From positions 1,302,001-1,366,000 of the forward strand of contig NZ_CP025249.1 in NCBI RefSeq assembly GCF_009930875.1: DNA of 64,000 bases, read 5' to 3'. The DNA comes from Actinomyces sp. 432. GTDB lineage: Bacteria > Actinomycetota > Actinomycetes > Actinomycetales > Actinomycetaceae. The notes below the pieces were generated by a model. That model was not told the DNA's origin and made no database searches. It saw only the letters and a list, made by a program, of their open reading frames with translations. The number at the start of each line of letters is the position of its first letter. Position 1 is the stretch's first letter. Shown piece after piece: positions 26,901 through 43,194 of this stretch. The position numbers were made by a program, and so were the translations under genes.

Positions 26901-27168
26901 GATTGTGTTCGGTGCCGAGGTGGGGACCGCCTACTCCGAGCTGGTCGATCCCGTGATTCAGCGTCAACGCCTGACCGCCCAGTCCCTGGCGGCGGCCGGA
27001 GGCGACCCCGAGGCCATGGAGCTGGACGAGGCGTTCTTGGCGGCGCTGGAGCAGGGCATGCCGCCTTCGGGCGGGTTGGGCATGGGCCTGGACCGGTTGG
27101 TCATGATGCTCACCGGCGCGTCCATCCGCGAGACGATCGCCTTCCCCCTGGTGAGGCCGGAGCAATGA
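23989..27168 (+). CDS. lysX: Bifunctional lysylphosphatidylglycerol synthetase / lysyl-tRNA synthetase LysX
   Basis: 1059-residue two-enzyme protein. Residues 1 to about 210 hold six or so membrane helices. A DUF2156 (MprF-like) aminoacyl-phosphatidylglycerol synthase domain follows to about 560, with ADGLSLDVMRRHPGADNGVTE. Residues about 600-690 are the anticodon-binding OB fold and 700-1059 the class II LysRS core: motif 2 FRNEGADATHNPEFTMLEAY and motif 3 GGLGMGLDRLVMMLTG. The C-terminal part makes Lys-tRNA and the membrane part transfers lysine to phosphatidylglycerol, raising surface charge and resistance to cationic peptides. The ATG at 23989 follows AAGGAG by 12 bases. Its stop overlaps the next gene (ATGA). 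Confidence 0.93.
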   Translation: MQAHKPLFPHILPRVLYLIAVLALTDTVLNSTPGIGQVLEFIFLWIVPLPSIDWLSGIVLLLLAAGMTKRKRAAWTALTLVTALVTLLYVLILAVAFQDEELADVRPYLTVNTATLLVFLGLLTAYRRHYTVRSQPGNSRRALTVFVASAGSVTLAAALVKFAVSGVGARQFGELLVGGSPQWLASLLGFGWAITFLVAFGMLLRSQQEIAQMSVKEESRVRTLLAEHPADSLGYFATRRDKSALLTDDAAVVYRVANGVALASGDPLGEPSTWSAAARAFVRRAAEFGWTPAVIGVSEAGARAYADAGLRALHIGDEAVLDFSRTRIDGMPEVRRPVRRLKERGYTVRIRRHREIPTDELSALAGLAHEWLGGEAERGFSMALGRLGDPSDGGCVMVEALYPPGDERGEIAALLSFAPWGADGLSLDVMRRHPGADNGVTELMVSALMSDGVELGLTRASLNFAVFRSAFVEGERIGAGPVRRLWRRLMLLASRWWQLESLYRSNAKYNPVWSPRMICYPDGGDLARVAFAMGVAEGFVSPPGWLSPTTDINQPRRDDEDSARLSAISMGASSTAPSRRPAKQFASRLASREAMVAAGMEPYPPSVNVTASCADASGACSVAGRVMSVRDHGGVLFADLRDRSGDLQILLERSTTGVDDMTRFRRLVRAGDQVVASGTVGTSRTGTRSLLVSTWSMTSKALRPLPDKRRGIRDPETRVRQRHLALIVDPGERRMVAARSHAIQAVRRELLGRDYLEVETPILQPVHGGANARPFKTHINAYDLDLYLRIAPELYLKRLMVGGMERVFEIGRNFRNEGADATHNPEFTMLEAYQAHADYEVMKDVARDLIVSAAQDALGTTVIRGRVGGAEHEIDLAAPWRTVSVCEAVSEGLGEEVGPETPMEVLRAAADRIAMPYDPRWGWGTLMQELYEHLAESTTVAPTFFTDFPAETSPLTRPHRQDARLAERWDLIVFGAEVGTAYSELVDPVIQRQRLTAQSLAAAGGDPEAMELDEAFLAALEQGMPPSGGLGMGLDRLVMMLTGASIRETIAFPLVRPEQ

Positions 27169-27815
27169 CCGCCCGCCGGGCACGGGTTGTACTCGCGCTG
27201 CTCGCCGTCGTCACCTACAACAGTTGGCTGGCGTGGCGGCTGAACGGCGACCCGCGCGCACTGTTCGGTTATCTGTCCGAGCTGGCCGCGCAGGACCAGC
27301 CCTACCAGTGGTTCTTCCGCCTGGGGGACCTGACGGCCGCAACCGTATTCGCCGTCATCGCCGTGCTCGGACGGCGCGGCTGGAGCCGATGGCTCGGCGT
27401 TCGCGCCCAGCACGCGTCGGTGGCCCTGGGGCTGGTTGCGGCCGGGACGGCGCTGGACAGCCTGTTCAACCTGCCGTGCGCGGAGAGCCGGGACGCGGTG
27501 TGCGCGGCCATGCCCAGCCAGGCCAGGCACCTGCACGAGGCCGCATCCGTACTCGTTTCGGTCGCGCTGGTCACCCTGATCGCCCTGGTGGCGCTGGGCA
27601 TGGCCGAGCGCAACGGCCGCACGGCGCGGTTCTGGGCGGTGGTGGCCTTCGGCGTCGTGATCGCCGCGCTGCTGCTGTTCACCGCGGTGGCGCCCAGACT
27701 CGCCCCCGGAACTCAGGGACCGGTGCAGGCCGTCCAGGTGCTGGCGTGCGCGGCTTGGATGGCGCTGCTGGCGTGGCGGCTCGAGGATGAACGGGAAGGA
27801 CAATCGGCAAGGTGA
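27165..27815 (+). CDS. DUF998-like integral membrane protein
   Basis: 216 residues with about six hydrophobic helices and the DUF998 pattern: short N-terminal helix, YLSELAAQDQPYQWFFRLGDL, a Cys pair in LPCAESRDAVCAAMPSQARHLHEAASV, then three C-terminal helices. The ATG overlaps the lysX stop (ATGA), so translation is coupled. A membrane partner coupled to LysX suggests a role in lipid modification or transport of the lysinylated lipid, but that is inference. Confidence 0.75.
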   Translation: MTARRARVVLALLAVVTYNSWLAWRLNGDPRALFGYLSELAAQDQPYQWFFRLGDLTAATVFAVIAVLGRRGWSRWLGVRAQHASVALGLVAAGTALDSLFNLPCAESRDAVCAAMPSQARHLHEAASVLVSVALVTLIALVALGMAERNGRTARFWAVVAFGVVIAALLLFTAVAPRLAPGTQGPVQAVQVLACAAWMALLAWRLEDEREGQSAR

Positions 27816-27818
27816 GTA

Positions 27819-28631
27819 ATGACTGACCCGGGGCGGATCACCGCGGGGCGCTTTCCGAGCGGTCATACGGTCCGGGTACGGGACGGACGCGGGCCGGGGG
27901 TGATGCTCCTGAACGGTTGTGGGCTGTCCGCCGCCGGGTGGGACGAGGTGGTCGCCTGTTTGCCCGGTCGTCGGGTGATCACCGTGGACCGTCCCGGACA
28001 CCACGGCACCCGGCATGCGGGGCCGCCGTCACTGGCCGGGGAGGCCAGGTTCTTGGTGGAGCTGCTGGACGCGGAGCCGGGGCAGGTGGTGGTAGTGGCG
28101 CACTCCATGGCTGCCTTCCAGGCGGAGGCGATCGCCCGGCTACGACCCGGGCGGGTGGCCGGGGTACTGCTGGTGGACCCGTCGGCGACGCCGCATGCCC
28201 GCTCGTCGGCCGCGGCCGACGCGCTGGACCGGATTGCGACACGCTGCCTGCGTCTGGCGGCGGTGCGCGTGGTCGCCGGGCGGATGCTGCGGGCGGGTAT
28301 GAGGTCGCAGACGATCAGGCCGGAGGCGATTGACTCGGCCGGATGGCGACCCCTGTGGGGCAGTGAGCGGGCACTGGCGGCTGCGGCGGCGGAATGGCTG
28401 GCGTTCCGTGGGCAGGCGGCGCAACTGCTGGCGCTGCGCAGACGGCAGGCGATACCCGCGCCGGTGCCGGCAGTCGTCCTGGAGGCGCCGCCATTCAGCG
28501 GCGCGGCGGCGGTGACGAGCCTGCTCACGGCATTCCGCGCTTCGCGCATACGACGCGTGCCCGGCTCCCGGCACCTGATGATGCTGGATGAGCCGCGTGT
28601 AATCGTGGAGGAGATCGAGCGCCTGTCCTAG
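27819..28631 (+). CDS. Alpha/beta-fold hydrolase
   Basis: 270-residue cytoplasmic alpha/beta hydrolase. LLNGCGLSAAGWDEVVACL provides the oxyanion region. The nucleophile elbow is VVVAHSMAAF (A-H-S-M-A in place of G-x-S-x-G), a late Asp/Glu is not certain, and the C-terminal His is in GSRHLMMLDEP. No signal peptide. It begins 4 bp after the DUF998 gene, so it is third in the lysX operon. Substrate unknown; a lipid or amino-acyl ester would fit the operon. It ends in a 4-bp convergent overlap with the SDR gene. Confidence 0.85.
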   Translation: MTDPGRITAGRFPSGHTVRVRDGRGPGVMLLNGCGLSAAGWDEVVACLPGRRVITVDRPGHHGTRHAGPPSLAGEARFLVELLDAEPGQVVVVAHSMAAFQAEAIARLRPGRVAGVLLVDPSATPHARSSAAADALDRIATRCLRLAAVRVVAGRMLRAGMRSQTIRPEAIDSAGWRPLWGSERALAAAAAEWLAFRGQAAQLLALRRRQAIPAPVPAVVLEAPPFSGAAAVTSLLTAFRASRIRRVPGSRHLMMLDEPRVIVEEIERLS

Positions 28632-29362
28632 TCCAGGGGCGTGCCTGTGGCCCGTCCCAGGGCGGCCAGTAGCTGGTCCTGGAACTCGCTGTCATTCACG
28701 CGCCGGTCGGGCTGCTGGGTGCGCAGGTGGTGCCAGTAGGCGCTGGTGTGGGTGCGTGGGTCCTCGCCCAGCGCGAGCCAGGCCTGGGTGTGGTGCCCGG
28801 CGTCCAGGTCGTCCGGGGCGCCGGTGCCGCCCATGCGGGTGGGCACCCAGCCCGGGTCGACGGCGTTCGCCCACGTGCCCGGGTGGAGGCGGCCCACTGC
28901 GGCCGCCAGCGCCGTCACCAGCAGCTTGGAGTCCGAGTACGACGCCGTCGGCCGCGTACCCGTCCAGTCCATGCCCGCAAGTCGTGTGGTATTGAGCCGC
29001 GCTCCGCGGTGCATGCTGGAGGAGAGGTACACGTGCCGCCGCGCGGGCACAAGCGCCGTCATCAGATACGGGGCCACCACATTTACGGATAGCACCAGGC
29101 GCTCGTCCATGGTGCCGGCGTTGTGGATGACGGCGTCCACACCACCCAGGGCGGCCACCTGCTCGGCCACCTCCCGCACCTGCGCCCGGTCAGCCAGGTC
29201 CCCGACGACGCCGGGGACCTGTTCTCCCAGGGCGCGGCCGACGGCGTCGAGCTGCTCGGAACGGCGTACATGCGCCACCACCTGCGCCCCGTGCTTGCGC
29301 AGGTCGCTCAGGGCTCCCAGCCCCAGTCCGGTGCTCGTTCCGGTAACCAGTACACGTGTCAC
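28628..29362 (-). CDS. Short-chain dehydrogenase/reductase
   Basis: 244-residue SDR. The cofactor motif is VTGTSTGLGLGALSDL (TGxxxGxG) at the N-terminus, IHNAG follows in the centre, and the catalytic pair is in YSDSKLL (Tyr-x-x-x-Lys) with a Ser in VYLSSSMH. The C-terminus (VDPGWVPTRMGG and a Gln/His-rich end) resembles atypical SDRs acting on small carbonyls. Its GTG start overlaps the end of the preceding small membrane gene by 4 bp, so it is the third gene of the HXXEE operon. Confidence 0.88.
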   Translation of the reverse strand: MTRVLVTGTSTGLGLGALSDLRKHGAQVVAHVRRSEQLDAVGRALGEQVPGVVGDLADRAQVREVAEQVAALGGVDAVIHNAGTMDERLVLSVNVVAPYLMTALVPARRHVYLSSSMHRGARLNTTRLAGMDWTGTRPTASYSDSKLLVTALAAAVGRLHPGTWANAVDPGWVPTRMGGTGAPDDLDAGHHTQAWLALGEDPRTHTSAYWHHLRTQQPDRRVNDSEFQDQLLAALGRATGTPLD

Positions 29363-29574
29363 TGTGATTGTCTCCGTTCTCCTCGGTCGACTCGGGGCTT
29401 CACGGTAACGTTACCGTCGCGCCGCACCTGCTCCGCAAGCGGGACCCAGCGCGGTGCCCGTCGCAGCAGCCAGGCGGAGGAGGCGCGGTAGGTTGCCAGT
29501 TCCTCGCCGTCGTTAAGCAGATAGCAGACGGCCAGTCCCAACGTGGCCGCGTCCACCGCGCTCGGCCGCCTCAT
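29359..29574 (-). CDS. Truncated HXXEE-like membrane protein
   Basis: 71 residues with one hydrophobic segment. LAVCYLLNDGEELATYR aligns with SWLAHDLEEYATM of the gene just upstream, with the motif His replaced by Asn, and RRAPRWVPLAEQVRR corresponds to its RSLPFLPEEVRLRG. After that the similarity stops in a basic tail. It looks like a shortened paralogue or the remains of a tandem duplication. The ATG overlaps the upstream stop by 4 bp (ATGA). Confidence 0.6.
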   Translation of the reverse strand: MRRPSAVDAATLGLAVCYLLNDGEELATYRASSAWLLRRAPRWVPLAEQVRRDGNVTVKPRVDRGERRQSQ

Positions 29575-30077
29575 GCCGCCAGCCTCCGCCAGCGCCGGGC
29601 GGCCAGATAGCCCGCGCCGTGCAGCACGACGCCCACGACGGGGAACGCGGGGAGCGTCCACCGGGCGGCCTTCGGCTCCACGCCGTCGGCCCGCAGCGCG
29701 GCCTTGGCGAAGCGCCAGAACGGCAGCACCACGGGCAGCGCCGTTGCGCACCCCGGTGTGTAACCGCGTGCGAGCGCCGCCGAGCCCAGGTGCATGAAGG
29801 CGTGCATGCCGTAGCCGTAGAGCATTGCCTGATAGAAGGCCGAACGTCCCCGGGTGCGGAAGCCGTCCACGGAGGCGGCCGCCATCAGTGCCCCCATCAG
29901 GCTCAGTGCCACCTGCACCTGGTCGCGGGAGAGTCCGCGCAGGCGCACCTCCTCGGGCAGGAACGGCAGCGAGCGCATGAAGGGATGGGCGCGGCCGGGC
30001 ATGGTCGCGTACTCCTCCAGGTCATGGGCGAGCCAGGAGAAGAACAGTGCTGAGGTCGCCAGGTTCACCTTGTCCAT
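29571..30077 (-). CDS. HXXEE domain membrane protein
   Basis: 168 residues, four or five hydrophobic segments. The family motif is visible as SWLAHDLEEYATMPG near the N-terminus (His-x-x-Glu-Glu), followed by a long helix around VQVALSLMGALMAAASVDG and MLYGYGMHAFMHLGSAAL. Function of HXXEE proteins is unknown; the conserved acids suggest metal binding. ATG at 30077 is preferred because GGAAGGA lies just upstream; the alternative ATG at 30092 falls inside the palindromic operator. It is divergent from a TetR gene, which probably represses it. Confidence 0.75.
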   Translation of the reverse strand: MDKVNLATSALFFSWLAHDLEEYATMPGRAHPFMRSLPFLPEEVRLRGLSRDQVQVALSLMGALMAAASVDGFRTRGRSAFYQAMLYGYGMHAFMHLGSAALARGYTPGCATALPVVLPFWRFAKAALRADGVEPKAARWTLPAFPVVGVVLHGAGYLAARRWRRLAA

Positions 30078-30091
30078 GAGTCCTTCCAACA

Positions 30092-30114
30092 TTGCGCAAC
30101 TGACAGTTGCGCAA
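30092..30114. promoter_or_regulatory. 23-bp perfect palindrome, probable TetR operator
   Basis: Half sites TTGCGCAACTG (30092-30102) and CAGTTGCGCAA (30104-30114) flank a single central A. It sits between the divergent HXXEE operon and the TetR gene, 15 bp from the HXXEE start, where a bound repressor would block transcription. Length and symmetry are typical of TetR-family operators. Confidence 0.8.
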
Positions 30115-30185
30115 CCTACGGTAGCGGAATTGGATGCCCGATGGAAGAATCACGTGTGATCCGGCGACAGGATGAGGAGGAGGCC

Positions 30186-30836
30186 GTGGCGGACAGACCA
30201 GACGGCACGGATGAGACGGGCCTGCGGGCCGGCACCGCCCGGCGTACAGACGCGGGCCGCGGCGGACGGCCACGTGACACCGCGCTGGACGAACGCATCC
30301 TGCAAGAGACCTTCACCCTGTTGGCCGAGGTGGGCCTGCACGGCCTGCGCATCGACCAGGTGGCCACACGCGCCGGTGTCCCCAAATCCACGATCTACCG
30401 GCGCTGGCGATCCCTGCCCGAGTTGGCCGTCGACGCCGTCGATGCCGCCCTGGGACCCCGCGAGTTCCCGGCGGGGGACGACCCGCTGGAGGACTTCTCG
30501 CGCCTCATCGTCCACACCTGGCGACTACTCATGCGCCCGCCCCTGACGACGGCGCTGCCCGGCCTGGGTGTGGAACTCGCCGGGCATCCCCGGGCAGCGG
30601 CCGCCTACCGGGAGCGCGTGATCGCACCCCTGCGAGACGGGGCGATCGACGCCGTCGCCCGCGCCGCGGATGCCGGGCTGTGGAACGGACCGGACCCGGT
30701 TACCAGCGTGGACATGCTGGTCGGCACCTTCCTCTACCGGCTGACCTACCTCGGCGAAGTCCCGGACCTGGAGGAGGTTTTCCGCGTGGCGGAGCTGGTC
30801 GCCGGGCGGGAGCTGCCCAGGCCCGATGCGGCTTGA
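30186..30836 (+). CDS. TetR/AcrR family transcriptional regulator
   Basis: 216 residues. After a polar N-terminal tail, the helix-turn-helix is RILQETFTLLAEVGLHGLRIDQVATRAGVPKSTIYRRW (split across residues about 35-72), the standard TetR DNA-binding domain. The C-terminal ligand domain is of the TetR_C type with HPRAAAAYRERVIAPLRDG. GTG at 30186 is chosen because GAGGAGGAGG ends a few bases before it; ATG at 30141 would add 15 residues but has a poor ribosome binding site. It likely autoregulates through the palindrome at 30092-30114. The helicase gene of the putative defence operon starts 62 bp downstream in the same direction. Confidence 0.9.
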   Translation: MADRPDGTDETGLRAGTARRTDAGRGGRPRDTALDERILQETFTLLAEVGLHGLRIDQVATRAGVPKSTIYRRWRSLPELAVDAVDAALGPREFPAGDDPLEDFSRLIVHTWRLLMRPPLTTALPGLGVELAGHPRAAAAYRERVIAPLRDGAIDAVARAADAGLWNGPDPVTSVDMLVGTFLYRLTYLGEVPDLEEVFRVAELVAGRELPRPDAA

Positions 30837-30898
30837 GCCTACGTGTCGGAGGCGGGACGTATGCTGGCCCGCCACCGTCGAACACGAAAGGACCTGCC

Positions 30899-33800
30899 GT
30901 GGAGCGGACAGTCAAGAATGCAGCGCAGGAGCCGACCAGGCCGACGGTCACCCTGGCTGACTTGCGCCCCGGCCAGCGGCTGCGCGGGCTGTTGCCCGGC
31001 CGTACGGTGAGGCTGGTGGCCGTGGACCCGATCGACACCGGGATGTCCGAGCTGTTCTACCATGACGACGCGGGTAGTAGCGGTGCCCGCATGGTCACCG
31101 AGGCCGACGTGGCCGTATTCGAGCTAGTTGGTGATGCGGATACGGCCCCGCCCTTCGATGCCGATCCGGATGAGTTCCGCCTGGCCGCGGAGGCGCTGCG
31201 CATTAAGTACGCCGCCCTGTATGACCCGATGGCGGCCGTCAACGGTTCCGACGTGGACCCGCTGCCCCACCAGATTCGGGCCGTGTACGAGGAGATGCTG
31301 CCGCGTGTGCCCCTGCGCTTCCTGCTCGCCGATGATCCCGGAGCGGGCAAGACCATCATGGCGGGCCTGTACCTGAAGGAACTTATCCTGCGTTCCGACT
31401 GCGAGAGGGCGATCGTCGTCGCACCCGGGGGACTGGTGGAGCAGTGGCACGACGAACTCTCCAGCAAATTCGATCTTCAATTCAAGGTCTTCACTCGCCA
31501 GATGTGTGATGACGCCCAGGGGCGCAACGTCTTCGCCGAGCACCCCTACCTGATCGTGCGCATGGACCAGATCTCCCGTGACGACGACCTCATGGAGCAG
31601 ATCGGTGAGGTGGGCTGGGACGTTGCGGTGGTAGACGAGGCCCACCGCATGAGCGCCCACTACTCCAACTGGTCGGGCGACGTGACCGAGACCCGTCGCT
31701 TTCGCCTGGGACGGGTGCTCTCGGAAAGGGCGCACAACCTGCTGCTGATGACGGCCACCCCGCACGCCGGCAAGGAGGAGGACTTCCAGCTGTTCATGTC
31801 GCTGCTGGACCGTGACCGCTTCGAGGGGCAGTTCCGCAGCGGCGTGCACCGCACCGACACCCACGGACTCATGCGCCGCATGGTCAAGGAGGACCTACTC
31901 ACCTTCGACGGCAAGCCACTGTTCCCGGAGCGGCACGCCTACACCGTCACCTACCGGCTCAGCCCCGCCGAGCAGGACCTGTACGAGCAGGTGACCGAAT
32001 ACGTACGCACCGAGATGGGACGGGCCGAGCGGCTGATACAGGCCGGCCAGGGGCGGCGAGGAAACAACGTCGGCTTCGCGCTCACGGTACTGCAGCGGCG
32101 CCTGGCCTCCAGCCCCGAGGCGATTGCGCGTTCCCTTGAGCGGCGCCGCGACCGCCTGGAGCGCCGCCTGTTGGAGGTGCAGCGCGGGCGGTACTCCGCT
32201 GCTACTGGCGACGGCGCGCCGCCCGCCTGGGAGGCCGCTGACCGGGAACTACCGTTCGACCTCGATTTGCCGGTCGGTTTCGATCTGGAGTCCTTCGATG
32301 AACTCGACGAGGAGGTTCCCTGGCTTGAGCGCGCCCGCTTCGAGGCGCAGGTGGACGAGGTCGCAGACCTGGCGACGGCAGCCCAAACGGTCAGCGAGCT
32401 GCGCGCCGAGATCACCATCCTGGAGGACCTCATCGCGGTGGCCAGGCGAGTGCGCGAGTCCGACGAGGATCGCAAGTGGGCGCAGCTGCGCACCATTCTC
32501 GACGAGCAGCTGCTCGCCAACCGCGCTGGACCGCCACGCAAGCTGATCATCTTCACCGAGCACCGGGACACCCTCAGCTACCTTGAGCGCCGGATCGCCG
32601 CCCAGCTCGGACGGGCCGACGCCGTCGTCACCATCCACGGCGGCACCAGCCGGGAGGACCGCAAGGCCGCCCGCGAGGAGTTCACGCACAATCCTGACGC
32701 CGTGGTGCTGCTGGCCACCGATGCGGCGGGGGAGGGCCTCAACCTGCAGCGCGCGCATCTCATGGTCAACTATGACCTGCCATGGAACCCGAACCGGATC
32801 GAGCAGCGCTTCGGTCGGATCCACCGCATCGGTCAGCGGGAGGTCTGCCACCTGTGGAACATGGTGGCCTCCGGCACCCGCGAGGGCGAGGTGTTCACCC
32901 GGCTGCTGGAGAAGATCGGCCAGATGTCGCGTGCCTACAACGGCAACCTGTTCAATGTGCTCGGCGACTCCGGCGCCTTCGAGGAGCGGTCCCTGCGCGA
33001 GCTGCTCATCGAGGCCATCCGCTACGGGGACCGGCCGGAGGTCAAGGCGGAACTGGACCGGGTGATCGACACCGGTGTATCCGCCGGGCTCGGTGAGGTA
33101 CTGCAGGAGCGTGCCCTGCACCCGGATATGTTCTCCGCCCTAGACCTGGAGGGGGTGCGCCGCCGTATGGAGCGGGCGCGTGAGCGCCGCCTCCAGCCCG
33201 GCTACATCGCCGCGTTCTTCATTCCCGCCTTCCGACGCCTGGGAGGGCGCATGAGCCGCCGGGAGTCCGGCCGGTACGAGATCGGCCGCGTACCCCCGCG
33301 CCTGCTGGATCTTGCCCGCCGCGCCAACCGGCTGGAGCCGCTACCGGGCGCCTACGAGCGTGTCACCTTCGAGCTGGAACGCCTGCACCCCGAGGGCCTG
33401 CCTCCGGCTGCCCTGCTCGCTCCCGGGCATCCACTGCTCAGCGCCGTGATCGAGGCGACCATCGCCGACCTGGAGCCGTCCCTGCGACGCGGTGCGGTCT
33501 TCATCGACCGGCGCGATAAGCAGGCAGACGCCGCGGCGCTGCTGCACACGGTGGAGCAGCGCATTACCGGTGCAGACGGACGTACCGTCTCGCACCACTT
33601 CGACTACCCCGCACTCGGGGAGGACGGCACCTTCACGGTCACACCAACCCCCGCCTACCTCGATTACGACCGGCCCCGCCCCGAGGAGCATGAGGCCATT
33701 GCCCACCTGCTTGACGCCGACTGGCTGCGCCACTCGCATGAGCGGGATGTGCGCGCCTGGGCGTACCGGGAGGGCCTTTTGCCACGCCTGGAGGAGATCA

Positions 33801-34522
33801 AGGCCCGGATAGGCGCGGAGACCGACCGTACCCGCGCCCAGGTGCGCCAGCGCCTCCTGGTCGAGATCAACTACTGGGACAACCAGTACAACCAGTTGGA
33901 GGCCCAAGAACGGCAGGGCAATTTCGGACGGTTGCGGGCGCAGACCGCCCTGGAGCGTGTCGAGAGCCTGGAGGCGCGCCTGGAGCGCCGCATGCGCGAA
34001 CTCGACGACGCCACTGAGTTGGTGCCCGCCCCGGCGGTTATACGAGGTATGGCGCTGGTGGTTCCGAGCCGGGTGCTGACCGGCCTGCTGGCTCATGCGG
34101 AAGCGGTTGCGGAGGCGCAGGCCCGCTTCGCGCGCCACACCCAGGAGGTTGAGCGTCGGGCCGTGGACGCCGTGCTGGCCGCCGAGCGGGCTCTGGGACG
34201 CACACCGGAGGAGATGCCGCACAACAACCCCGGCTATGACATCCGCACCACCGATCCCACCGGCGCCGTGTACTACCTGGAGGTCAAGGGGCGCGTAGCG
34301 GGGGCCGACACCTTCACCATCACCGTGAACGAGGTCGCCTTCGCCCGCACGCAGGCAGATCGTCACCGCCTGGCTTTGGTGGCGGTAGATCCGCGGGGGC
34401 CGGCATACGATCGGGTACGTTACGTCTTGGGCGCCTTCTCCCACCTGGAGCCCTCGGCCACCACCCATTCCTATAATGAGGGCTGGAACGATCACTGGAG
34501 CCGGGGAGGTCCGCCCCGCTGA
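30899..34522 (+). CDS. SNF2/DEAH helicase with C-terminal DUF3883 domain (candidate defence gene)
   Basis: 1207-residue superfamily 2 helicase. Walker A DDPGAGKT at about 145-152, motif II VVDEAHRMS near 246, motif III LLMTATPHAGKEED. The C-terminal RecA lobe has FTEHRDTLSYLERRI, ATDAAGEGLNLQRAH and motif VI RFGRIHRIGQ near 637. A long helical region follows. Residues about 1108-1170 are a DUF3883-like, nuclease-fold-related module: NNPGYDIRT and YYLEVKGRV, with the D-x(n)-ExK arrangement of Mrr/PD-(D/E)xK folds. The GTG start follows AAAGGA by 8 bases. It is the first of three genes with the DUF1156 methyltransferase and DUF499 ATPase, a combination typical of defence islands. Confidence 0.92.
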   Translation: MERTVKNAAQEPTRPTVTLADLRPGQRLRGLLPGRTVRLVAVDPIDTGMSELFYHDDAGSSGARMVTEADVAVFELVGDADTAPPFDADPDEFRLAAEALRIKYAALYDPMAAVNGSDVDPLPHQIRAVYEEMLPRVPLRFLLADDPGAGKTIMAGLYLKELILRSDCERAIVVAPGGLVEQWHDELSSKFDLQFKVFTRQMCDDAQGRNVFAEHPYLIVRMDQISRDDDLMEQIGEVGWDVAVVDEAHRMSAHYSNWSGDVTETRRFRLGRVLSERAHNLLLMTATPHAGKEEDFQLFMSLLDRDRFEGQFRSGVHRTDTHGLMRRMVKEDLLTFDGKPLFPERHAYTVTYRLSPAEQDLYEQVTEYVRTEMGRAERLIQAGQGRRGNNVGFALTVLQRRLASSPEAIARSLERRRDRLERRLLEVQRGRYSAATGDGAPPAWEAADRELPFDLDLPVGFDLESFDELDEEVPWLERARFEAQVDEVADLATAAQTVSELRAEITILEDLIAVARRVRESDEDRKWAQLRTILDEQLLANRAGPPRKLIIFTEHRDTLSYLERRIAAQLGRADAVVTIHGGTSREDRKAAREEFTHNPDAVVLLATDAAGEGLNLQRAHLMVNYDLPWNPNRIEQRFGRIHRIGQREVCHLWNMVASGTREGEVFTRLLEKIGQMSRAYNGNLFNVLGDSGAFEERSLRELLIEAIRYGDRPEVKAELDRVIDTGVSAGLGEVLQERALHPDMFSALDLEGVRRRMERARERRLQPGYIAAFFIPAFRRLGGRMSRRESGRYEIGRVPPRLLDLARRANRLEPLPGAYERVTFELERLHPEGLPPAALLAPGHPLLSAVIEATIADLEPSLRRGAVFIDRRDKQADAAALLHTVEQRITGADGRTVSHHFDYPALGEDGTFTVTPTPAYLDYDRPRPEEHEAIAHLLDADWLRHSHERDVRAWAYREGLLPRLEEIKARIGAETDRTRAQVRQRLLVEINYWDNQYNQLEAQERQGNFGRLRAQTALERVESLEARLERRMRELDDATELVPAPAVIRGMALVVPSRVLTGLLAHAEAVAEAQARFARHTQEVERRAVDAVLAAERALGRTPEEMPHNNPGYDIRTTDPTGAVYYLEVKGRVAGADTFTITVNEVAFARTQADRHRLALVAVDPRGPAYDRVRYVLGAFSHLEPSATTHSYNEGWNDHWSRGGPPR

Positions 34523-34576
34523 AGCGCGTGCACCTCGTTCCCGCTATTCCACGATATCTAGCAAGAAAGCCATGAA

Positions 34577-37352
34577 GTGACCGTTCCTCAGCTCGCCAAG
34601 AAGCTCATCGAGACCTCCCTGCCCCTGGAGGCCATTAACGAGGCCTCGGTGCGTGAGAAGTCGATCCGCCACGGGCATCCCTCCACCCTGCACCTGTACT
34701 GGTCACGCAAGCCGCTGGCCACGGCGCGGGCAGTACTCTTCGCCCAGCTGGTGGACGATCCCGCCTCCCACCCGGAGCAGTTCCCCACCCTAGCCGAGCA
34801 GGACGCCGAGCGCACCCGCCTGCACGAGCTTATGCGCCGACTGGTGGTGTGGGAGAACAGCAACGATGAGACGCTGCTGCGCCAGGCCCGGGCCGAGATT
34901 CGCAAGAGCAACAATGGTGAGCTTCCCGCTGTGGTCGACCCATTCGCGGGGGGGGTCTATTCCTTTAGAGGCTCAGCGTCTCGGCCTTGAAGCGCATGCG
35001 AGCGATCTTAATCCGCTCTCCGTAGTCATAAACAAGGCGCTGGTGGAGATCCCGCCGCGCTTTTCCGGCCGGGAGCCGGCACACCCGGGCGGGGCCGAGC
35101 AGAACTTCTACCAGCGGGCCGAGGGCCTGGCCGAGGACGTCCGCCACTACGGGCAGTGGCTGCGCGACGAGGCACAAAGCCGCATAGGCCATCTCTACCC
35201 CAAGGCGACCGGACCCGACGGCAACGAATACACCGTGATCGCCTGGAAGTGGGCGCGCACGGTACGCAGCCCCAACCCCGCCAACCCCATCGAAACGCCA
35301 CTGGTCAACTCCTGGTGGCTGAGCAAGAAGAAGGGCCACGAGGCCTGGGTCAAGGCCACCGTCCGCGACGGGCAAGTCCACTACGAGGTCATACATAACG
35401 CCAATGGGCCGCGCGGAAAAGATGATGGCACGATAAACCGCCGCGGCGCGGTCTGCGTAGCCGACGGAACTCCGATCGACTTCGACTACATTCGCTCCGA
35501 GTCGCGAGCAGGGCGAATGGGTGCTCAACTCATAGCCGTCGTTGCGGAGGGACCTTCGGGGCGCCTATACGCTTCCCCGACGGTTTTGCAGGTAGACGCG
35601 GCGCACATTGACCACCCTGTTGGTCTACCCGATGCGGCGTTACCCGCGCAGGCCCTTGGCTTTCGCGTTCAAGCGTACGGTTTCGAACAATGGACTGACC
35701 TGTTCACGAACCGGCAGTTGGTGGCACTGACCACACTGAGTGACCTGGTGGGGGAGGCGCGCGAGCGCGTGCTCGCCGACGCCATCGCGGCAGGAATGCC
35801 TCCGGGGGAGCGACTCAGGGACGGCGGCACCGGCGCGCAGGCCTACGCTGACGCAGTGGCCACCTACCTGGCGCTGGGCGTCAGTCGCACGGCGGATTAC
35901 TGCAATGCGCTGTGCACCTGGCACACGACCGGAGAAAAGATCACGCACCTGTTCACCCGTCAGGCGATTCCGATGACTTGGGATTACACGGAGACGAACA
36001 TCTTCTCACGTTCCTCAGGTAACTTTCTCGGCCAGCTCACGTGGGTGGCGAAGGCCCTCATCCACGCTCCAGCATCCGCCGTCGGCGAGGCAAAGCAGAT
36101 CAGCGCCACGGGACGCGCCTACAACGGCATGGTCGTCTCCACCGATCCGCCCTACTACGACAATATCGGCTACTCCGACCTGTCCGACTTCTTCTACGTC
36201 TGGCTGCGCCGCTGCCTGCACGACATCCACCCCGAGGTGGTCGGTACCATGCTCACCCCCAAGGCCGAGGAGCTGGTGGCCAACCCCTACCGGCACGACG
36301 GCAAGGAGGGCGCCGCCAAGTTCTTCGTCGAGGGCTTCAACGCGGTCTTCGCCCGCATCCGCCAGGGCGCCAACCCGGCCGTACCCATGACCGTCTACTA
36401 CGCCTACAAGCAGCAGGACGCCGCCGCGGGTGGCACCACCTCCACCGGCTGGCACACGCTGCTGGCGGGCCTCATCGATGCGGGCTGGGAGATCACCGCC
36501 ACCTGGCCCATGCGCAGTGAGATGGACAATCGGATGCTGTCACAGGGCACCAATGCCCTGGCCTCCTCCATTGTGCTGGCCTGCCGACCCCGCCCCGCGG
36601 ACGCCCCGGCCACCACCCGCCGCGCCCTGACGGCCCAGCTCAAGACGGAACTGCCGGGCGCCCTGCGCACCCTCATGCAGGGCGCCGTCGCCCCGGTGGA
36701 CCTGGCCCAGGCCGCCATCGGCCCCGGTATCTCCGTGTTCTCCCGCTACACCCGCGTGCGCGAGGCCGACGGCACGAATATGACCGTCGGCGACGCCCTC
36801 ACCCTCATCAACGCCACCCTCGACGAGGTACTCGGCGAGCAGGAGGCGGATACCGACCCGGACACGCGCTTCGCCACCCGCTGGTACCGCCAGTACGGGT
36901 GGGAGCAGGGCAGCGCCGGCCTGGCCGACCAGCTGGCCCGCAGCTGCGATACCTCCCTGGGTGCCCTTGAACGCGGTGGCATCTTCCAGGCGCGCGGAGG
37001 CAAAGCCCGCCTGCTGACGCCCTCAGAGCTGGACGGGCAGTGGAACCCCGAGGCCGACGACCGCATCAGCATCTGGGAGGCCACCGTGCGCCTGGCCGCA
37101 GTCATGAACCAGGAAGGCGTGGAACGGACCGCCCAGCTGCTCGCGCAGGCGCAGCGGCGCATCAGCCCGGACTCCATCAAGGAACTCGGCTTCCTCCTCT
37201 TCCACGAGGCCGAGAAACAGCATCACACCGAGGACGCCCTCCTGTTCAACGGCCTGGTAACCGCCTGGGCAGACATCACCGGCAAGGCCCGCCGCCTCGC
37301 CAGCGCCCCCGCCGCTATACAGGACGGCTTCAACATGAACGGAGAGGACTGA
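34577..37352 (+). CDS. DUF1156 DNA methyltransferase (COG1743-like), interrupted at a G8 tract
   Basis: Amino-methyltransferase modifying adenine or N4-cytosine. The N-terminal DUF1156 region is [19 protein letters not shown] and [20 protein letters not shown]. Motif I begins VVDPFAGG and, after the break, continues [20 protein letters not shown]. Catalytic motif IV is [20 protein letters not shown] near residue 523. The frame is lost at the G8 run 34948-34955: removing one G or adding two restores it, and adding two gives the canonical FAGGGS and 925 residues. DNA at 35390-36060 is clearly less GC-rich than its flanks. In the operon it would mark self DNA. GTG at 34577 lacks a strong ribosome binding site. 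Confidence 0.88.
34948..34955 (+). repeat. G8 homopolymer at the methyltransferase frame break
   Basis: Eight consecutive G within the codons for the cofactor-binding motif FAGG(G)S. Ten G would give the canonical motif; seven would give a one-Gly-shorter but open frame. Such tracts are both sequencing hazards and classic slipped-strand phase-variation sites. Confidence 0.85.
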
Positions 37353-37353
37353 C

Positions 37354-40300
37354 ATGGCACTCAGCAACCGGGAATACGTCGGCCGCGCCTTCGAACTGCT
37401 CGCCGAGGGCCTCATCGACACGGTCGATCCGGTCATGGCCCAGGTCTTCGGCACCGCCGACTGGCCCACCGCCTGGGCGGCCCGTGACGCAGCCAAACAC
37501 GGGCGGCCCGCCCGCACCATCTCCAAGGACGACCCGATGGTGCTGCTGCGCGCCATCAACGAGCACGGCTACGAGTTCAGGAATGCGCTCTCCCGCGCCC
37601 AGCAGAGCTTCGCCTCCGAACTGCGCGAGACCCGCAACCAGTGGGCGCACGGCGAGAAGTTCAGCTCCGAGGACACCCTGCGAGCACTGGACACCACCGA
37701 GCGGCTGCTGCAGGCCGTGGACGCCGTCGACTCCGCCGCCGACGTCCACAAGATGCACGCCACCCTGCAGCGCACCGTGTACGAGGCCCAGACCCGCCAG
37801 CAGGTCAAGCGCGTCACCAAGACCACGGTGAGCGGCAACGGCCTGCGGCCCTGGCGCGAGGTCATCCGCCCCCACCCGGACGTAGCCAGCGGCAAGTTCA
37901 CCGCCTCCGAGTTCGCCGCCGACCTGCACCAGGTGGCCACCGGGCAGGCCGTCGGCAGCGAGTACGCGGACCCGGTGGAGTTCTTCTCCCGCACCTACCT
38001 CACCGAGGGCCTGCGCGACCTGCTGACCCGGGCGGTGCGCCGGCTCGGCGGCGACGCCGGCGCCAGCCCCGTCATCAACCTGCAGACGAACTTCGGCGGC
38101 GGCAAGACCCACTCCATGCTCGCCCTCTACCACCTGTTCGGCGATACCAGCGCCCAGAAGCTCCCACAGGACCTGCAGGACCTGCTGGCGGACGCGGGCA
38201 ACCCCGATCCGGCCGGGCTCAAGGTTCACCGCGTCGCCCTGGTGGGCACCTACCTGCAGGCGGGCTCCCCGCAGGTAAAGGACGACGGCACGCAGGTGCG
38301 CACCCTGTGGGGCGAGCTCGCCTGGCAGCTCGGTGGCCGCGAGGCCTACGACATCATCGCCGACGCCGACCGCACCGGCACCAACCCCGGCGACTCCCTG
38401 GCGACACTCCTGCGCCGCTACACGCCCGCGCTGATACTCATCGACGAGTGGGTGGCCTACGCCCGCCAGTTGCTCACCGACAAAGAGCTCCCGGCGGGCG
38501 CCTTCGACACCCAGTTCACCTTCGCCCAGTCACTGACCGAGGTGGTGCGCTCCATACCGGGCACCATGCTGGTGGTCTCCATCCCGGCGTCGGACTCCGG
38601 CCCGGACGGGCGCGGCAGCGACATTGAGATCGGTGGCGAGAACGGGCACCTCGCCCTGCAACGGCTGCAGAACGTGATCCGTCGGGTGGCCGACCAGTGG
38701 CGCCCCTCCAGCCGGGACGAGTCCTTCGAGATCGTGCGGCGCCGCCTGTTCCAGGAGCCCGACGCCGAGGGCCACCAGGCCATCCGGACCACGGCCCGTG
38801 CGTTCGTGAACGTCTACCGCAGTGCGCCCGCCCTGTTTCCTCGGGAGGCGTCCGGACCAGACGACGACTACGACAAGCGCATCCGCGCCTCTTACCCGCT
38901 GCACCCCGAACTACTGGACCGTCTGTATGAGGACTGGTCCACCCTGGAGCGCTTCCAGCGCACCCGCGGCGTGCTCAAACTCGTCTCCTCCGTGGTTCAT
39001 GAACTGTGGGCCTCGCAGGACGCCTCGCCGCTGATCCTGCCCGGCAACGTGCCCCTGAGTGCGACCACCGTCAACACCGACCTCACCCAGTATCTGGAGG
39101 ATCGTTGGAAGCCGGTGATCGACTCGGACATTGACGGCCCGGCCTCCACCGCCCAGGCGATCGACAATGAGCGCACGAGCCTGGGCTCGCGCTTCATCAC
39201 TCGGCGCGTCGCCCGCACCGTGTTCCTCGGGGCGGCACCGCGGACCGGCTCGGCCCACAAGGGGATCGACAAGCCGTACGTGTGGCTCGGTACCGCCGTG
39301 CCCGGAGACGTGCTGGGCAATTTCGGCAGCGCTGTGGAGGCGCTGGCCCAGCGCTCCACCTACTTCTACCAGGATCAGGGGCACTACTGGTTCGACACCA
39401 GCCCGTCCTTGACCAAGACCGCCAACGACTACGCCGAGCGGCTGCGCGAGGACGGGGAACTAGTATGGAACGAGATCGTCCGGCGCCTGGAGGGCCAGGA
39501 CCGTGCCCGCGGCGTCTTCGACCGGGTGCACCTGGCACCCGCCTCCAGCGCGGAGATCCCCGACTTGGAGGAGGCCCGGCTCGTCGTCGTTCACCCACGT
39601 CACGCCCGCAGCAAGCAGGACGGCCCCGACTCGCCGTCGCACCGCTGGGTGCATGAGGCCATCGAGGCCAGGGGGGCCGCCCAGCGCACGCACCGAAACG
39701 CCCTGGTGTTCTTGCTGGCCGACGCCGGTGAGCTCGCCTCCCTGGAGGCCGCCACCCGTAGCTACCTGGGCTGGAGGCAGGTGCAGGCGAACACCGAGTC
39801 ACTGAACCTGTCGGCCCAGCAGAACCAGCAGGTCAGCGAGGAGCTGACGCGGCTGAATCAGACCGTTGAGGACCGTCTGCGCGGAACCTACCAGTGGGCG
39901 CTCTACCCCTACCAGCCCGTCGCCACCGCCCCCTTCGAAGTCGAGGTCACCAGGATTCCCGATTCCGGCAGTGGCTCGCTGGCCGAGCGCGTCGGCGTGA
40001 AGCTCCGCCGGGAGGAGCAGCTCGTCACCGAACTCGGTGCGTCCTTCCTCGGAGTCATGCTCCACAGCGAACTAAAGGAAGTGTGGGAGCGGGAGGGCGA
40101 ACTGAGCGTGGGGGAACTGTGGGGCTACCTGACCCGCTACCCGTACCTGCCGCGGCTGGTCCGCCGCAGCGTGCTGGACGACTGCATCCGCCGCTGTGTT
40201 GACGCCGTCCTCGTCGGGGACGAGCGCTTTGCCGTCGCCTCCGGCAAGGACACGGAGAACGGAAGGTATCGGGGGCTGATCATCCCGCCGCAGGCCGATG

Positions 40301-40773
40301 CCCGCATCGAGGTCACCGACTCCACGCTGCTGGTTGATGCGGCCAAGGCGCAGCTACAGCTCGACGCCGACCGGGCCGCAGTTGCGTCGTCGGCAACAAC
40401 TAGGCCGGATTCGAAGCCGACCTCTACCGAATCGGGGCAGAGTCGAGCCGACCGCGGCGACACGTCTGACTCGCGCCACCGCATAGGCGGCGGGAAGGCC
40501 GACGGCTCGTCCGGCACCGGTGAGCCGGACACGGAGACGAGGCCGACCCGGTTCTTCGGATACGTCACCGTCGATCCGCAGCGGTACGGACGTGACATCG
40601 GAACGGTCATCCGCGAGGTGATCGACCGCCTCGCCGGGACTGGTGCGCAACTGAAGATCACCATCGATATTGACGCCACCAAGCCCGGTGGATTCCATGA
40701 GTCCGACGTACGAACCATCAGCGAGAACGCCCGGACCCTGAAGTTCGACTCCCAGGGTTTCGAGGCTGAGTGA
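37354..40773 (+). CDS. HEPN(Swt1-like)-DUF499 ATPase (candidate defence gene)
   Basis: 1139 residues. The first 150 or so resemble a Swt1-type HEPN domain: YVGRAFELLAEGLIDTVDPV, and RNQWAHGEKFSSEDTLRALD with the HEPN Rx4H signature at R94-H99. The DUF499 AAA-like ATPase core follows: Walker A NFGGGKTHSMLALYHLF near 250, Walker B LILIDEWVAYAR near 360. A Ser/Thr/Asp-rich linker (about 1005-1060) precedes a conserved small C-terminal domain RFFGYVTVDPQRYGRDIG. It starts 1 bp after the methyltransferase stop. Likely the ATP-driven sensor or effector of the system, with the HEPN part a possible RNase. Function is inferred from domains and context. Confidence 0.88.
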   Translation: MALSNREYVGRAFELLAEGLIDTVDPVMAQVFGTADWPTAWAARDAAKHGRPARTISKDDPMVLLRAINEHGYEFRNALSRAQQSFASELRETRNQWAHGEKFSSEDTLRALDTTERLLQAVDAVDSAADVHKMHATLQRTVYEAQTRQQVKRVTKTTVSGNGLRPWREVIRPHPDVASGKFTASEFAADLHQVATGQAVGSEYADPVEFFSRTYLTEGLRDLLTRAVRRLGGDAGASPVINLQTNFGGGKTHSMLALYHLFGDTSAQKLPQDLQDLLADAGNPDPAGLKVHRVALVGTYLQAGSPQVKDDGTQVRTLWGELAWQLGGREAYDIIADADRTGTNPGDSLATLLRRYTPALILIDEWVAYARQLLTDKELPAGAFDTQFTFAQSLTEVVRSIPGTMLVVSIPASDSGPDGRGSDIEIGGENGHLALQRLQNVIRRVADQWRPSSRDESFEIVRRRLFQEPDAEGHQAIRTTARAFVNVYRSAPALFPREASGPDDDYDKRIRASYPLHPELLDRLYEDWSTLERFQRTRGVLKLVSSVVHELWASQDASPLILPGNVPLSATTVNTDLTQYLEDRWKPVIDSDIDGPASTAQAIDNERTSLGSRFITRRVARTVFLGAAPRTGSAHKGIDKPYVWLGTAVPGDVLGNFGSAVEALAQRSTYFYQDQGHYWFDTSPSLTKTANDYAERLREDGELVWNEIVRRLEGQDRARGVFDRVHLAPASSAEIPDLEEARLVVVHPRHARSKQDGPDSPSHRWVHEAIEARGAAQRTHRNALVFLLADAGELASLEAATRSYLGWRQVQANTESLNLSAQQNQQVSEELTRLNQTVEDRLRGTYQWALYPYQPVATAPFEVEVTRIPDSGSGSLAERVGVKLRREEQLVTELGASFLGVMLHSELKEVWEREGELSVGELWGYLTRYPYLPRLVRRSVLDDCIRRCVDAVLVGDERFAVASGKDTENGRYRGLIIPPQADARIEVTDSTLLVDAAKAQLQLDADRAAVASSATTRPDSKPTSTESGQSRADRGDTSDSRHRIGGGKADGSSGTGEPDTETRPTRFFGYVTVDPQRYGRDIGTVIREVIDRLAGTGAQLKITIDIDATKPGGFHESDVRTISENARTLKFDSQGFEAE

Positions 40774-40817
40774 GGCGACGACGAGAACGACGCGGGCGGC
40801 AACCTAGGTAGCCCGAC

Positions 40818-40854
40818 CAGTCAGTCGGCGGCGATCATCGCGGCCGACTGACTG
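40818..40854 (+). terminator. Long palindromic terminator of the defence operon
   Basis: A perfect 12-bp stem, CAGTCAGTCGGC (40818-40829) with GCCGACTGACTG (40843-40854). The loop is itself a dyad (GCGAT-C-ATCGC), making an almost continuous hairpin about 45 bp after the DUF499 stop. The T-rich stretch after it belongs to the inserted IS end. Confidence 0.8.
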
Positions 40855-41811
40855 AGCCTTTCTCATCAGGGGAGGTTGTTGTTCAGGTTGAGTATGACTA
40901 GGGCGGTGGCGGTGATGTTGGTGATGGTGGCTGGGTCGAGGGTGACTCGTTTGAGGGCTTTGAAGCCCTTTAGGAGGGCGTTGGCTCGCTCGGCGGGGGC
41001 TCGCAGGCTGGCTTGGACCTGGTTGTAGGAGCGCGCCCCGGTGTCGGGCTTGGAGCCCTTGATGGGCGTCTTGATACCGATGCCTGCGCCTACGTAGCCC
41101 TTGTCCGCCAGCGTCGCCATGCCCTGGGCGGCTACCGGGTACAGGGCCGGCAGCACATGGGCTCTGGCGGCCTCGATGTCATGGGTGGAGCCCGGTTCCA
41201 CCTGGGATGTCCACACGGGGTAGCCCGTGTGGTCGGTAAGCACCTGCACGTTCCCACCGAAGGCCTTGTGCTTGCCCGAGTACCACAGGTGGTATCCGGT
41301 ATCGGGGTCACGCTCGGCGACCCGGTCGGTGCGGATGAGGGTGCCGTCCAGGCACACGAACGGCTCACCCTTGTCCTTCAGGGTGCGTAGCACGTCGGGC
41401 AGGTCCGGCGCCTTTGACGATACGACGTCCAGGGCCTCATGCAGGTACCGGTAGGCGGTAGCGGGTGAGACTCCTGCGTCGCGGGCCACGGTGGTCACGG
41501 CCGGGGCCTCGATCAGCCAGCGCAGCAGCATGACAGCCTGGGCCCAGCTGGTAGCGGCCCGCTGCCAGGGACGCGCATCGTGGTGGCGGCGGTGGGCGGT
41601 GATCCAACGGGACACGGTGCGGGCAGTAGTCACGGGGACGTCGAGAGTGGCACGATAGGACAGCACGCGGAGCCCCTTTCCGGGCTTGCTTTCTTGGTCG
41701 AAACACATGCTGCCGGAAGGCTCCGCGTGCACCCACCAACGACACACCCACCTTCCCGCACCATCCCAACGATCCCAACCCGCACCCCCTCAACCCTGAT
41801 GAGAAACGCTC
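40854..41811. mobile_element. IS5-family-like insertion sequence (about 958 bp)
   Basis: Terminal inverted repeats at 40854-40871 (GAGCCTTTCTCATCAGGG) and 41794-41811 (complement of GAGCGTTTCTCATCAGGG) match at 17 of 18 positions. The trinucleotide ACT lies immediately outside both ends (40851-40853 and 41812-41814), consistent with a 3-bp target duplication as made by the ISL2 group. One transposase gene fills the element and its stop codon lies inside the left repeat. It inserted on the 3' edge of the defence-operon terminator. The element looks intact. Confidence 0.88.
40866..41666 (-). CDS. IS5-like DDE transposase
   Basis: 266 residues. The N-terminal helix-turn-helix region is VTTARTVSRWITAHRR and VARDAGVSPATAYRYLHEA. 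The DDE_Tnp_4 catalytic domain has LDGTLIRTDR (first Asp), the block PVWTSQVEPGSTHDI, LADKGYVGAGIG (second Asp region) and RAPAERANALLKGFKALKR (catalytic Glu). The GTG at 41666 is preferred: AAAGGGG lies about 9 bases upstream and similarity begins with LSYRATLD. An ATG at 41708 is the alternative. The frame is intact, so the element may still be active. Confidence 0.9.
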   Translation of the reverse strand: MLSYRATLDVPVTTARTVSRWITAHRRHHDARPWQRAATSWAQAVMLLRWLIEAPAVTTVARDAGVSPATAYRYLHEALDVVSSKAPDLPDVLRTLKDKGEPFVCLDGTLIRTDRVAERDPDTGYHLWYSGKHKAFGGNVQVLTDHTGYPVWTSQVEPGSTHDIEAARAHVLPALYPVAAQGMATLADKGYVGAGIGIKTPIKGSKPDTGARSYNQVQASLRAPAERANALLKGFKALKRVTLDPATITNITATALVILNLNNNLP

Positions 41812-42192
41812 ACTGGTTCGCGCACGGATCGCCGAATTGGAGGCCGAACTCAGGTCGAGCCGCAGTGAATACAGTAGCGTCGGCCGGTGTAGGCCGAATC
41901 GTTCAACACCGCATCAATCTGCTCGTGGGCCATGCTCCGTGCTCATGCGTGTTCCCGGCGTATCTGGTAAGCAGCGATCTGACAGCAGCGCAAGGCGTAG
42001 CTGTTTAACTGTAACTGTACCCCGGAAAACCGCAGCCCAACTTCATTATTTTCCCAGACAAGGTGCCTGCCGTATCGAGTTGGCGACATCTCGCACATAT
42101 GCTTGAGTGGCGTACTACATTTCCTTCCAGGCGCCCGGCCGACGCCGTTCAGTCAATACTTCGTCAACGCTCGCACACGGAAAGAGGCTGCT
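41812..42192 (+). other. Intergenic region between the IS and the bile-salt-hydrolase gene
   Basis: 381 bp with no convincing gene. The first 60 bases can be read as RARIAELEAELRSS, a coiled-coil-like fragment that may be the end of a disrupted or decayed gene, but nothing identifiable. The stretch about 42000-42110 is AT-rich compared with the window and probably holds the promoter of the following gene; I could not define -35 and -10 boxes. AAAGAGG at 42181-42187 is the ribosome binding site of that gene. Confidence 0.6.
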
Positions 42193-43194
42193 ATGTGTAC
42201 GGCGATCAGGTTCACGGACAGCGAAGGCAATATGTACTTCGGGCGCAATCTGGACTGGAGCACGTCCTTCGGCGAGCGCATCGTCGTCGTGCCGTCGGGA
42301 TTCATGATCCGCTCGGCCTTCGGTGATGGCGCTCCGGCCGCGCACGCGGTAATCGGTATGGGCATCGTCCTTGAGGACTACCCGCTGTACTTCGACTGCG
42401 GCAACGACTCCGGCCTGGCCGTCGCCGGGCTGAACTTCCCCGGCTACGCCTGCTACCAGGACGGACCGGTGGTCGGCAAGACCAATGTGGCCGCCTACGA
42501 GTTCCCGCTGTGGATCGCCGCGAACTTCACCAGCGTCGACGAGGCGGAGGCGGCGCTGACAAATACCGCGCTCGTGGCCAAGCCGGTCGGTGATGGCCTC
42601 GGCGTCTCCCTGCTGCACTGGATAATCGGGGACGGCACGCGCAGCATCGTGGTGGAATACATGAAGGACGGCATGCACATTCACCGCAACCCGGTCGACA
42701 CCCTGGCCAACCAGCCCGCTTTCGACTGGCACTTGGAAAACCTGCGCACCTTCATCACAGCCGACGGTTCCCTGCCCGACGCCGCCCACTGGCGCGACGC
42801 CGAGCTCGTGCCCTTCGGGTCCGGCGCCGGCATGCGCGGCATTCCCGGCGACTATTACTCGCCGTCGAGGTTCGCCAAGGCGGCATTCCTGAACGCACAT
42901 TACCCGGTCAAGGACAATGAGGCGGAAAATGTTTCCCGACTGTTCCACACCCTGGGTAACGTCTCCATGGTGGACGGGGCCGCGCTCATGGCCGACGGCG
43001 CCTACGAGCGCACGCTGTACACCGGCTGCTTCTCCGCGCGCACAGGCACCTACTACTACTCGACTTACGACGACCCGGCGCTGCGGAGCGTGAGCCTGCC
43101 CGACTTCACCGACGCGGCGGCAGTCGGCCTTCTGGAGCCCGTGCCCGCACCGTGGCACCCCGGTCTGGCGCGTGAGCCCGCCGAGCATGCCTAG
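42193..43194 (+). CDS. Choloylglycine hydrolase family protein (bile-salt hydrolase-like)
   Basis: 333-residue N-terminal-nucleophile hydrolase. After removal of Met the protein starts with the catalytic Cys (MCTAIRF). FGRNLDWS supplies the conserved Arg and Asp near residues 17-20. GLAVAGLNFPGYACY, GDGTRSIVVEYMKDG and the Asn in NVSMVDG/TLGN segments fit the family. Members hydrolyse conjugated bile salts, penicillin V or acyl-homoserine lactones; sequence alone cannot choose. The ATG at 42193 is fixed by the required Cys2 and the AAAGAGG site. No signal peptide, as usual for bile-salt hydrolases. Confidence 0.9.
   Translation: MCTAIRFTDSEGNMYFGRNLDWSTSFGERIVVVPSGFMIRSAFGDGAPAAHAVIGMGIVLEDYPLYFDCGNDSGLAVAGLNFPGYACYQDGPVVGKTNVAAYEFPLWIAANFTSVDEAEAALTNTALVAKPVGDGLGVSLLHWIIGDGTRSIVVEYMKDGMHIHRNPVDTLANQPAFDWHLENLRTFITADGSLPDAAHWRDAELVPFGSGAGMRGIPGDYYSPSRFAKAAFLNAHYPVKDNEAENVSRLFHTLGNVSMVDGAALMADGAYERTLYTGCFSARTGTYYYSTYDDPALRSVSLPDFTDAAAVGLLEPVPAPWHPGLAREPAEHA

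Follow-up and report, generated by a model that had tools for sequence, protein, structure and literature searches.

The Hma defence system of the 2021 PADLOC study (PMC8565338, cited here, like the other papers, from extracts of its text) has been reported from 26 phyla, and its gene order and three protein families are the same as those of an operon in Actinomyces sp. 432, which we examined in a window of 64,000 nucleotides (the whole stretch analysed; contig NZ_CP025249.1, positions 1,302,001 to 1,366,000 of the forward strand). The Type-1 bacteriophage exclusion (BREX)-related systems (PMC12839542) share with it a HEPN-DUF499 ATPase, a DUF1156 methyltransferase (an N6-methyltransferase in that paper) and a helicase with an active PD-(D/E)XK end, and according to PMC12839542 phage defence by the HmaA helicase was confirmed in an experimental study; on the mechanism of Hma, the extracts of both papers contain proposals only. 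HmaB is described as a predicted m5C methylase in PMC8565338, whereas the PPY-type motif of the window gene, together with PMC12839542, may point to N6-adenine. What the window hmaB adds is a slippage-type G run. The term ‘phase variation’ is absent from the text of PMC8565338; in that of PMC12839542, ‘slippage’, ‘frameshift’ and ‘phase variation’ are likewise missing, and ‘phase-variable’ is confined to the references. Our searches of open-licence PMC papers brought up no title or abstract that describes phase variation, or a tract, for Hma or for systems with DUF1156 or DUF499, which does not prove that no such report exists.

A close parallel is the phage growth limitation (Pgl) system of Streptomyces coelicolor, in which pglX is likewise the methyltransferase of a multi-gene actinobacterial defence and the length of its G tract switches that defence, at 1e-2 to 1e-4 (PMC4365076); Pgl is another system, however, and for Hma the switching is a proposal. 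The pili of Bifidobacterium breve (PMC9187656) likewise depend on an intragenic G9-G12 tract with ON and OFF frames and polarity on downstream genes, but they do not serve defence. Restriction or methylase genes with poly-G or similar repeats are also found in Campylobacter (Type IIG; PMC8713573) and Helicobacter, but these enzymes differ from Hma in being single-gene or Mod-type and in belonging to another phylum.

On its profile matches and Pfam domains, the operon (30899-40773) is an Hma (Type-1 BREX-related) defence system: the PADLOC profiles for HmaA, HmaB and HmaC match adjacent genes in that order, HmaB on two pieces (Table 1). The initial annotation had proposed this name, and PADLOC returns it for all three families. 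Run on ten proteins from 23944-43188, PADLOC gave no match outside the hma genes, and PglZ, known from BREX and Pgl, had no match among the ten proteins scanned. Not all three genes are open in the window copy, in which hmaB is broken; relatives hold intact copies, and the break is a state of the window copy that leaves its kinship with Hma unaffected.

The frame break of hmaB and its counterparts

The N-terminal part of hmaB, which starts at 34577, leaves its frame after DPFAGG and then stops. At this point lies a G8 run that encodes part of the S-adenosylmethionine (SAM)-binding motif I, DPFAGGG, and is the sole G or C run of at least eight bases in the window; the genome, a single contig of 3.14 Mb, has ten. 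The body continues in a second frame for about 2.4 kb without further break, ending with a stop at 37350-37352, one base ahead of the hmaC ATG at 37354, and the PPY-type motif, (D/N/S)PP(Y/F/W), is present in all 56 HmaB relatives tested. The frame break sits on a homopolymer run, as slippage-based phase variation requires. The initial annotation had taken the second gene for a DUF1156 methyltransferase. The DUF1156 domain and the methyltransferase body are both there, but in different frames and not as one open gene; the slippage-type run had been overlooked, and with it the fact that the system as sequenced is without an in-frame methyltransferase. The first part of an open reading frame beginning at 34866 is a frame artefact.

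Table 1. Features of the Hma operon and of the second run-broken defence gene
Feature	Position	Strand	Evidence
hmaA: SNF2/DEAD helicase with C-terminal PD-(D/E)XK-like NOV_C	30899-34522	+	PDLC00659 1282 bits; in frame
NOV_C nuclease-like domain, GYD...LEVK	34148-34402	+	PF13020 3.1e-17, residues 1157-1241 of P0001
hmaB N-terminal part, DUF1156	34577-34990	+	PF06634 2.2e-29; HmaB model (PDLC00660) 7-117, 143 bits
hmaB body, in the other frame, with the remainder of motif I, the region for target recognition and the catalytic motif DPPY	34947-37352	+	PDLC00660 924 bits, model 148-957
G8 run, frame break, in SAM motif I codons of hmaB	34948-34955	+	sequence
hmaC: HEPN_Swt1 fused to DUF499 AAA+ ATPase	37354-40773	+	PDLC00662 890 bits; PF18731, PF04465
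HEPN_Swt1 domain, RNxxxH motif	37384-37722	+	PF18731 3.2e-30, residues 11-123
Probable terminator hairpin, after hmaC	40818-40854	+	fold of 40805-40875 -37.5 kcal/mol, z -4.69
Type ISP restriction-modification enzyme	L127:6229-11465 (G000:C1:3101228-3106464)	-	broken at G9 run

Of the 82 distinct hmaB genes compared, 14 contain 8-11 consecutive G or C bases; nine of these are out of frame and five in frame, whereas none of the 68 genes without a run has a frame shift (Fisher p 7e-9, uncorrected for kinship): the frame state follows the run. Two of the run-free genes show other lesions, an inner stop in L038 and one TGA in L099 (loci are numbered L and proteins P). Besides the window, motif-I codons contain the run in Actinomyces glycerinitolerans (G10, in frame), in two Corynebacterium loci (G10 in frame, G9 out of frame) and in Bifidobacterium leontopitheci (G8, out of frame). 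Four further Bifidobacterium loci have it 35-37 bases upstream of the aligned body start (L039 in frame; L042, L043 and L050 out), and runs elsewhere in hmaB accompany a lost frame in L072 (G9), L048 (G11) and L097 (G9) and an intact one in L075 (C11) and L045 (C9). Apart from the window, eight loci in seven genomes or metagenome-assembled genomes are out of frame at runs, and six of the nine out-of-frame loci have the run within 50 bases of motif I. Because the runs lie at different places in hmaB, they arose more than once, and on the tree the trait changes at least eight times (by a quick method that leaves 18 of 79 inner branches open). Run lengths vary between close relatives, in DNA as well as in proteins, giving in-frame and out-of-frame states, and hmaA and hmaC are in frame in the mapped loci that have hmaB out of frame. 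L042 and L050, which share one genome, are two Hma loci of Bifidobacterium colobi, in both of which hmaB loses its frame at a G run. G runs at motif I also occur in methyltransferases on viral contigs (L113-L117), of which L115 is out of frame and the other four in frame.

Near-identical proteins are polymorphic at the same site. Among 120 of 6913 N-terminal fragment matches, from a search confined to proteins 0.55-1.75 times as long as the query, pattern matching placed 40 out of frame in motif I (a few of them, for example P0145, P0207 and P0240, ambiguous through sequence ends or substitutions) and 75 in frame, with five lacking the motif. P0126 and P0128 agree over 119 residues and then continue into differing out-of-frame tails; P0129 and P0132 have identical N-termini followed by differing out-of-frame tails, and P0175, P0204 and P0209, identical over 110 residues, end in three tails. 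In the clade of the window, P0005 (A. procaprae), P0006 (Actinomyces sp. 594) and P0007 share the late start of the window's truncated product, P0004. The longest contigs of the N-terminal fragments P0124 and P0125 equal in size those of P0006 and P0007, and the P0124 cluster (three members on two contigs, the longest of 167863 bases) bears the window's out-of-frame tail.

The genome has another defence gene that is broken in this way, one for a Type ISP restriction-modification enzyme; its frame break coincides with a G9 run (3105658-3105666, minus strand) that is one of the genome's ten. Mrr_cat_2 and ResIII fall in the first part of the gene, and the ISP coupler, N6_Mtase and Type_ISP_C in the second. 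We inspected 12 of 20 genus loci, in 11 of which the site was visible: eight have a run of 7-11 G (three in frame and five out, including the copy of Actinomyces sp. 432), and three are run-free and in frame. Over the hmaB and Type ISP runs together, 8 of 22 are in frame, near the one third expected if length drifts regardless of frame.

Run frequency, selection and allele exchange

In the first 57 loci, G or C runs of at least eight bases are spread unevenly over the operon (p = 1e-4, uncorrected for kinship), with 12 in hmaB (57 genes, 155 kb), two in hmaA (46 genes, 144 kb) and none in hmaC (48 genes, 159 kb). Synonymous shuffling leads one to expect 4.7 in each of the two partner genes, both of which are run-poor. 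We take this to mean that runs are generally avoided and that hmaB is less subject to this constraint.

Nei-Gojobori estimates of dN/dS (the ratio of nonsynonymous to synonymous substitution rates) between the window and an in-frame sister were 0.142 for hmaA, 0.097 and 0.125 for the two parts of hmaB, 0.236 for the HEPN stretch and 0.140 for the rest of hmaC; for the hmaB bodies of the out-of-frame loci L042 and L043 the ratio was 0.088, with synonymous sites near saturation. By these ratios, out-of-frame hmaB is under selection like that on in-frame genes, with no sign of relaxation, and is not in decay.

Within HmaB, conservation is mosaic. Between the window and Actinomyces sp. 594, flanking blocks are 87-100% identical per 30 residues, against 20-77% in two regions, roughly residues 121-240 and 271-360 of a product with 769 residues. 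In the pairs L042/L051, L024/L046 and L018/L047, hmaA and hmaC differ by a dN of 0.01-0.03 and the hmaB body by 0.12-0.24. Because the body diverges beside near-constant hmaA and hmaC, hmaB alleles seem to be swapped next to constant partners, an exchange resembling that of the specificity subunits known from Type I enzymes.

A proposed slippage switch and its rivals

These patterns make it likely that the HmaB of this operon is switched on and off by length changes of its motif-I G run. Replication slippage would alter the run at high frequency, and one clone would hold both ON and OFF cells. HmaB would supply target specificity and be needed for attack, HmaC would build up the complex where foreign DNA is unmethylated, HmaA would translocate and cut, and the HEPN domain may serve as an RNase of last resort. 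OFF cells would contain HmaB as a stub without the SAM site, and translation would end about 2.4 kb before hmaC, which, as it starts one base past the hmaB stop, may also fall by polarity; such cells would survive because attack needs HmaB. That attack most likely has this need is suggested by the loci in which hmaA and hmaC are in frame and hmaB is not.

Several points weigh against the proposed switch. The in-frame partner genes just mentioned fit dependence on HmaB without proving it, and switching is inferred from the comparison of assembled genomes and proteins. The window assembly may contain indel errors: given the break in a GH32-like gene (59460-60985), the run length in the window may be wrong, and the case rests on relatives. 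The number of hmaB runs alone is not significant, since synonymous shuffling gives 8.5 for the 12 observed and 65 of 500 shuffles reach as many. A motif-I run was found in none of 395 other genomes in an even phylum sample, which makes this form rare and clade-bound, and among 29 class-sample loci examined only L097 had a run. Out-of-frame Type ISP genes with other damage (an extra stop in L131, a missing middle in L138, a contig piece in L143) imply that some of these genes may be decaying, and the polymorphic N-terminal fragments come largely from metagenome assemblies and were compared at the protein level.

Of the competing explanations, the one that survives best, although we hold it to be unlikely, accepts the switch and makes HmaB a classical protective methyltransferase; OFF cells would then stay alive only through polarity or low expression that shuts down HmaC and the attack as well. 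Protection of self DNA by the methyltransferase is proposed in PMC12839542, hmaB and hmaC lie close together in the window (one base apart) and in sister loci, and in six of nine out-of-frame loci the run near motif I falls early in the gene. However, where the run sits further into the gene, at +2029 (L048) or +809 (L072), a larger part of hmaB is still translated, from which weaker polarity would be expected, and the exchange of hmaB alleles beside near-constant partners suits a specificity subunit.

An assembly error, with a miscalled homopolymer in an hmaB that is truly in frame, is improbable. It would agree with the second frame break of the window, at a site without a long run, with a genome completeness of 96.96% (lower in 3 of 48 genus relatives) and with the out-of-frame state of the genome's own Type ISP gene. 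It is opposed by P0124, which has the window's out-of-frame tail and a longest contig of the same length as that of P0006, and by the eight other loci out of frame at runs; such an error would change the window's own state only and leave the recurrent runs untouched.

Still less probable is programmed recoding, in which polymerase or ribosome would slip on the G run and yield some full-length HmaB from unchanged DNA. The two-frame layout around the run would suit it, and transcriptional slippage can arise at long homopolymers; recoding should, however, fix one length, and in-frame as well as out-of-frame lengths occur in relatives, with 5 of 14 runs in frame in hmaB and a share near the random one third when Type ISP genes are included. 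The least credible account is that hmaB is a pseudogene whose frame was lost by accident at a fragile site, for although hmaB is out of frame in the window genome and L038 and L099 have an inner stop without a run, the window's hmaB shows the same dN/dS relative to the in-frame sister as hmaA and hmaC do (the out-of-frame Bifidobacterium pair gives 0.088, with synonymous sites near saturation), its 2.4-kb body has no further break, and runs of at least eight, rare in the genome, recur in hmaB.

Partner genes, genome setting and consequences

The domains that the initial annotation had assigned to the partner genes are borne out by profile searches. HmaA, whose GTG start is closely preceded by a purine-rich stretch, is covered by its profile over nearly the full length and contains SNF2-rel_dom, Helicase_C and the nuclease-like C-terminal NOV_C; the nuclease motif is kept in 43 of 46 HmaA C-termini and the helicase motifs in 38 of 38. 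In HmaC, DUF499 is fused to a Swt1-type HEPN domain with the motif RNQWAH, and RNxxxH is found in all 45 HEPN stretches tested; in the ATPase, Walker A is present in 49 of 49 and Walker B, by pattern match, in 48. With catalytic motifs of both the nuclease-like end and HEPN maintained across relatives, the predicted combination of DNA and RNA attack arms is plausible. As a DISARM DrmD, the helicase falls short of the curated cut-off (NF038317, 352 bits against 610). The hmaA of Buchananella hordeovulneris (L027, 6332-9587) shifts frame at a C9 run.

Patchy occurrence, also anticipated, is evident in the genus, where hmaB is present in 11 of 49 genomes, in three of which HmaA lies beside it (in stretches of about 20 kb), a distribution that fits a defence role. 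Among the loci found, A. glycerinitolerans is the closest relative with a name; its HmaB body is 93% identical. The operon is flanked, as claimed, by a TetR gene and an IS5-family transposase; the neighbours, judged by eye, are mostly housekeeping-like and do not look like a defence island. The supposed strong terminator is a stable hairpin that dominates its 71-nt fold, but it has no clear U run and is unlisted by a terminator pattern scan. The IS5-family element (about 40854-41811; a 3-bp repeat and inverted ends were recognised by eye) borders the edge of this hairpin. The sister species, A. glycerinitolerans, lacks the element, which is therefore a late arrival. The GH32-like gene, so assigned by eye, loses its frame near 59665, through mutation or assembly error. 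Elsewhere, L065 (5747-14934) has a head-to-head pair of hmaB copies with hmaC after one of them, and 12 HEPN-type loci have a gap of more than 1 kb between hmaB and hmaC; three gap genes were tested, giving a YhcG/DUF1016 nuclease in L016 (12404-13507) and L024 (12410-13528) and an ApeA-like protein in L036 (3123-4514).

On a wider scale, we lean, with only modest confidence, towards the view that in several actinobacterial lineages (Actinomyces, Corynebacterium, Bifidobacteriaceae and others) the specificity methyltransferase of Hma has acquired G runs time and again, at the SAM site or elsewhere, as has a Type ISP enzyme in Actinomyces, so that slippage would let populations hedge more than one restriction-like defence. 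HmaB would be both switchable and, through its mosaic recognition blocks, swappable, with helicase and ATPase constant; as its loss would silence the system instead of killing the cell, HmaB would be a targeting subunit and not an antidote. If this is true, ON and OFF cells are otherwise equal, which would make the methylation site, self-protection and the need for HmaB directly testable, and gene-presence surveys may score a switched-off system as active, or a switched gene as a pseudogene.
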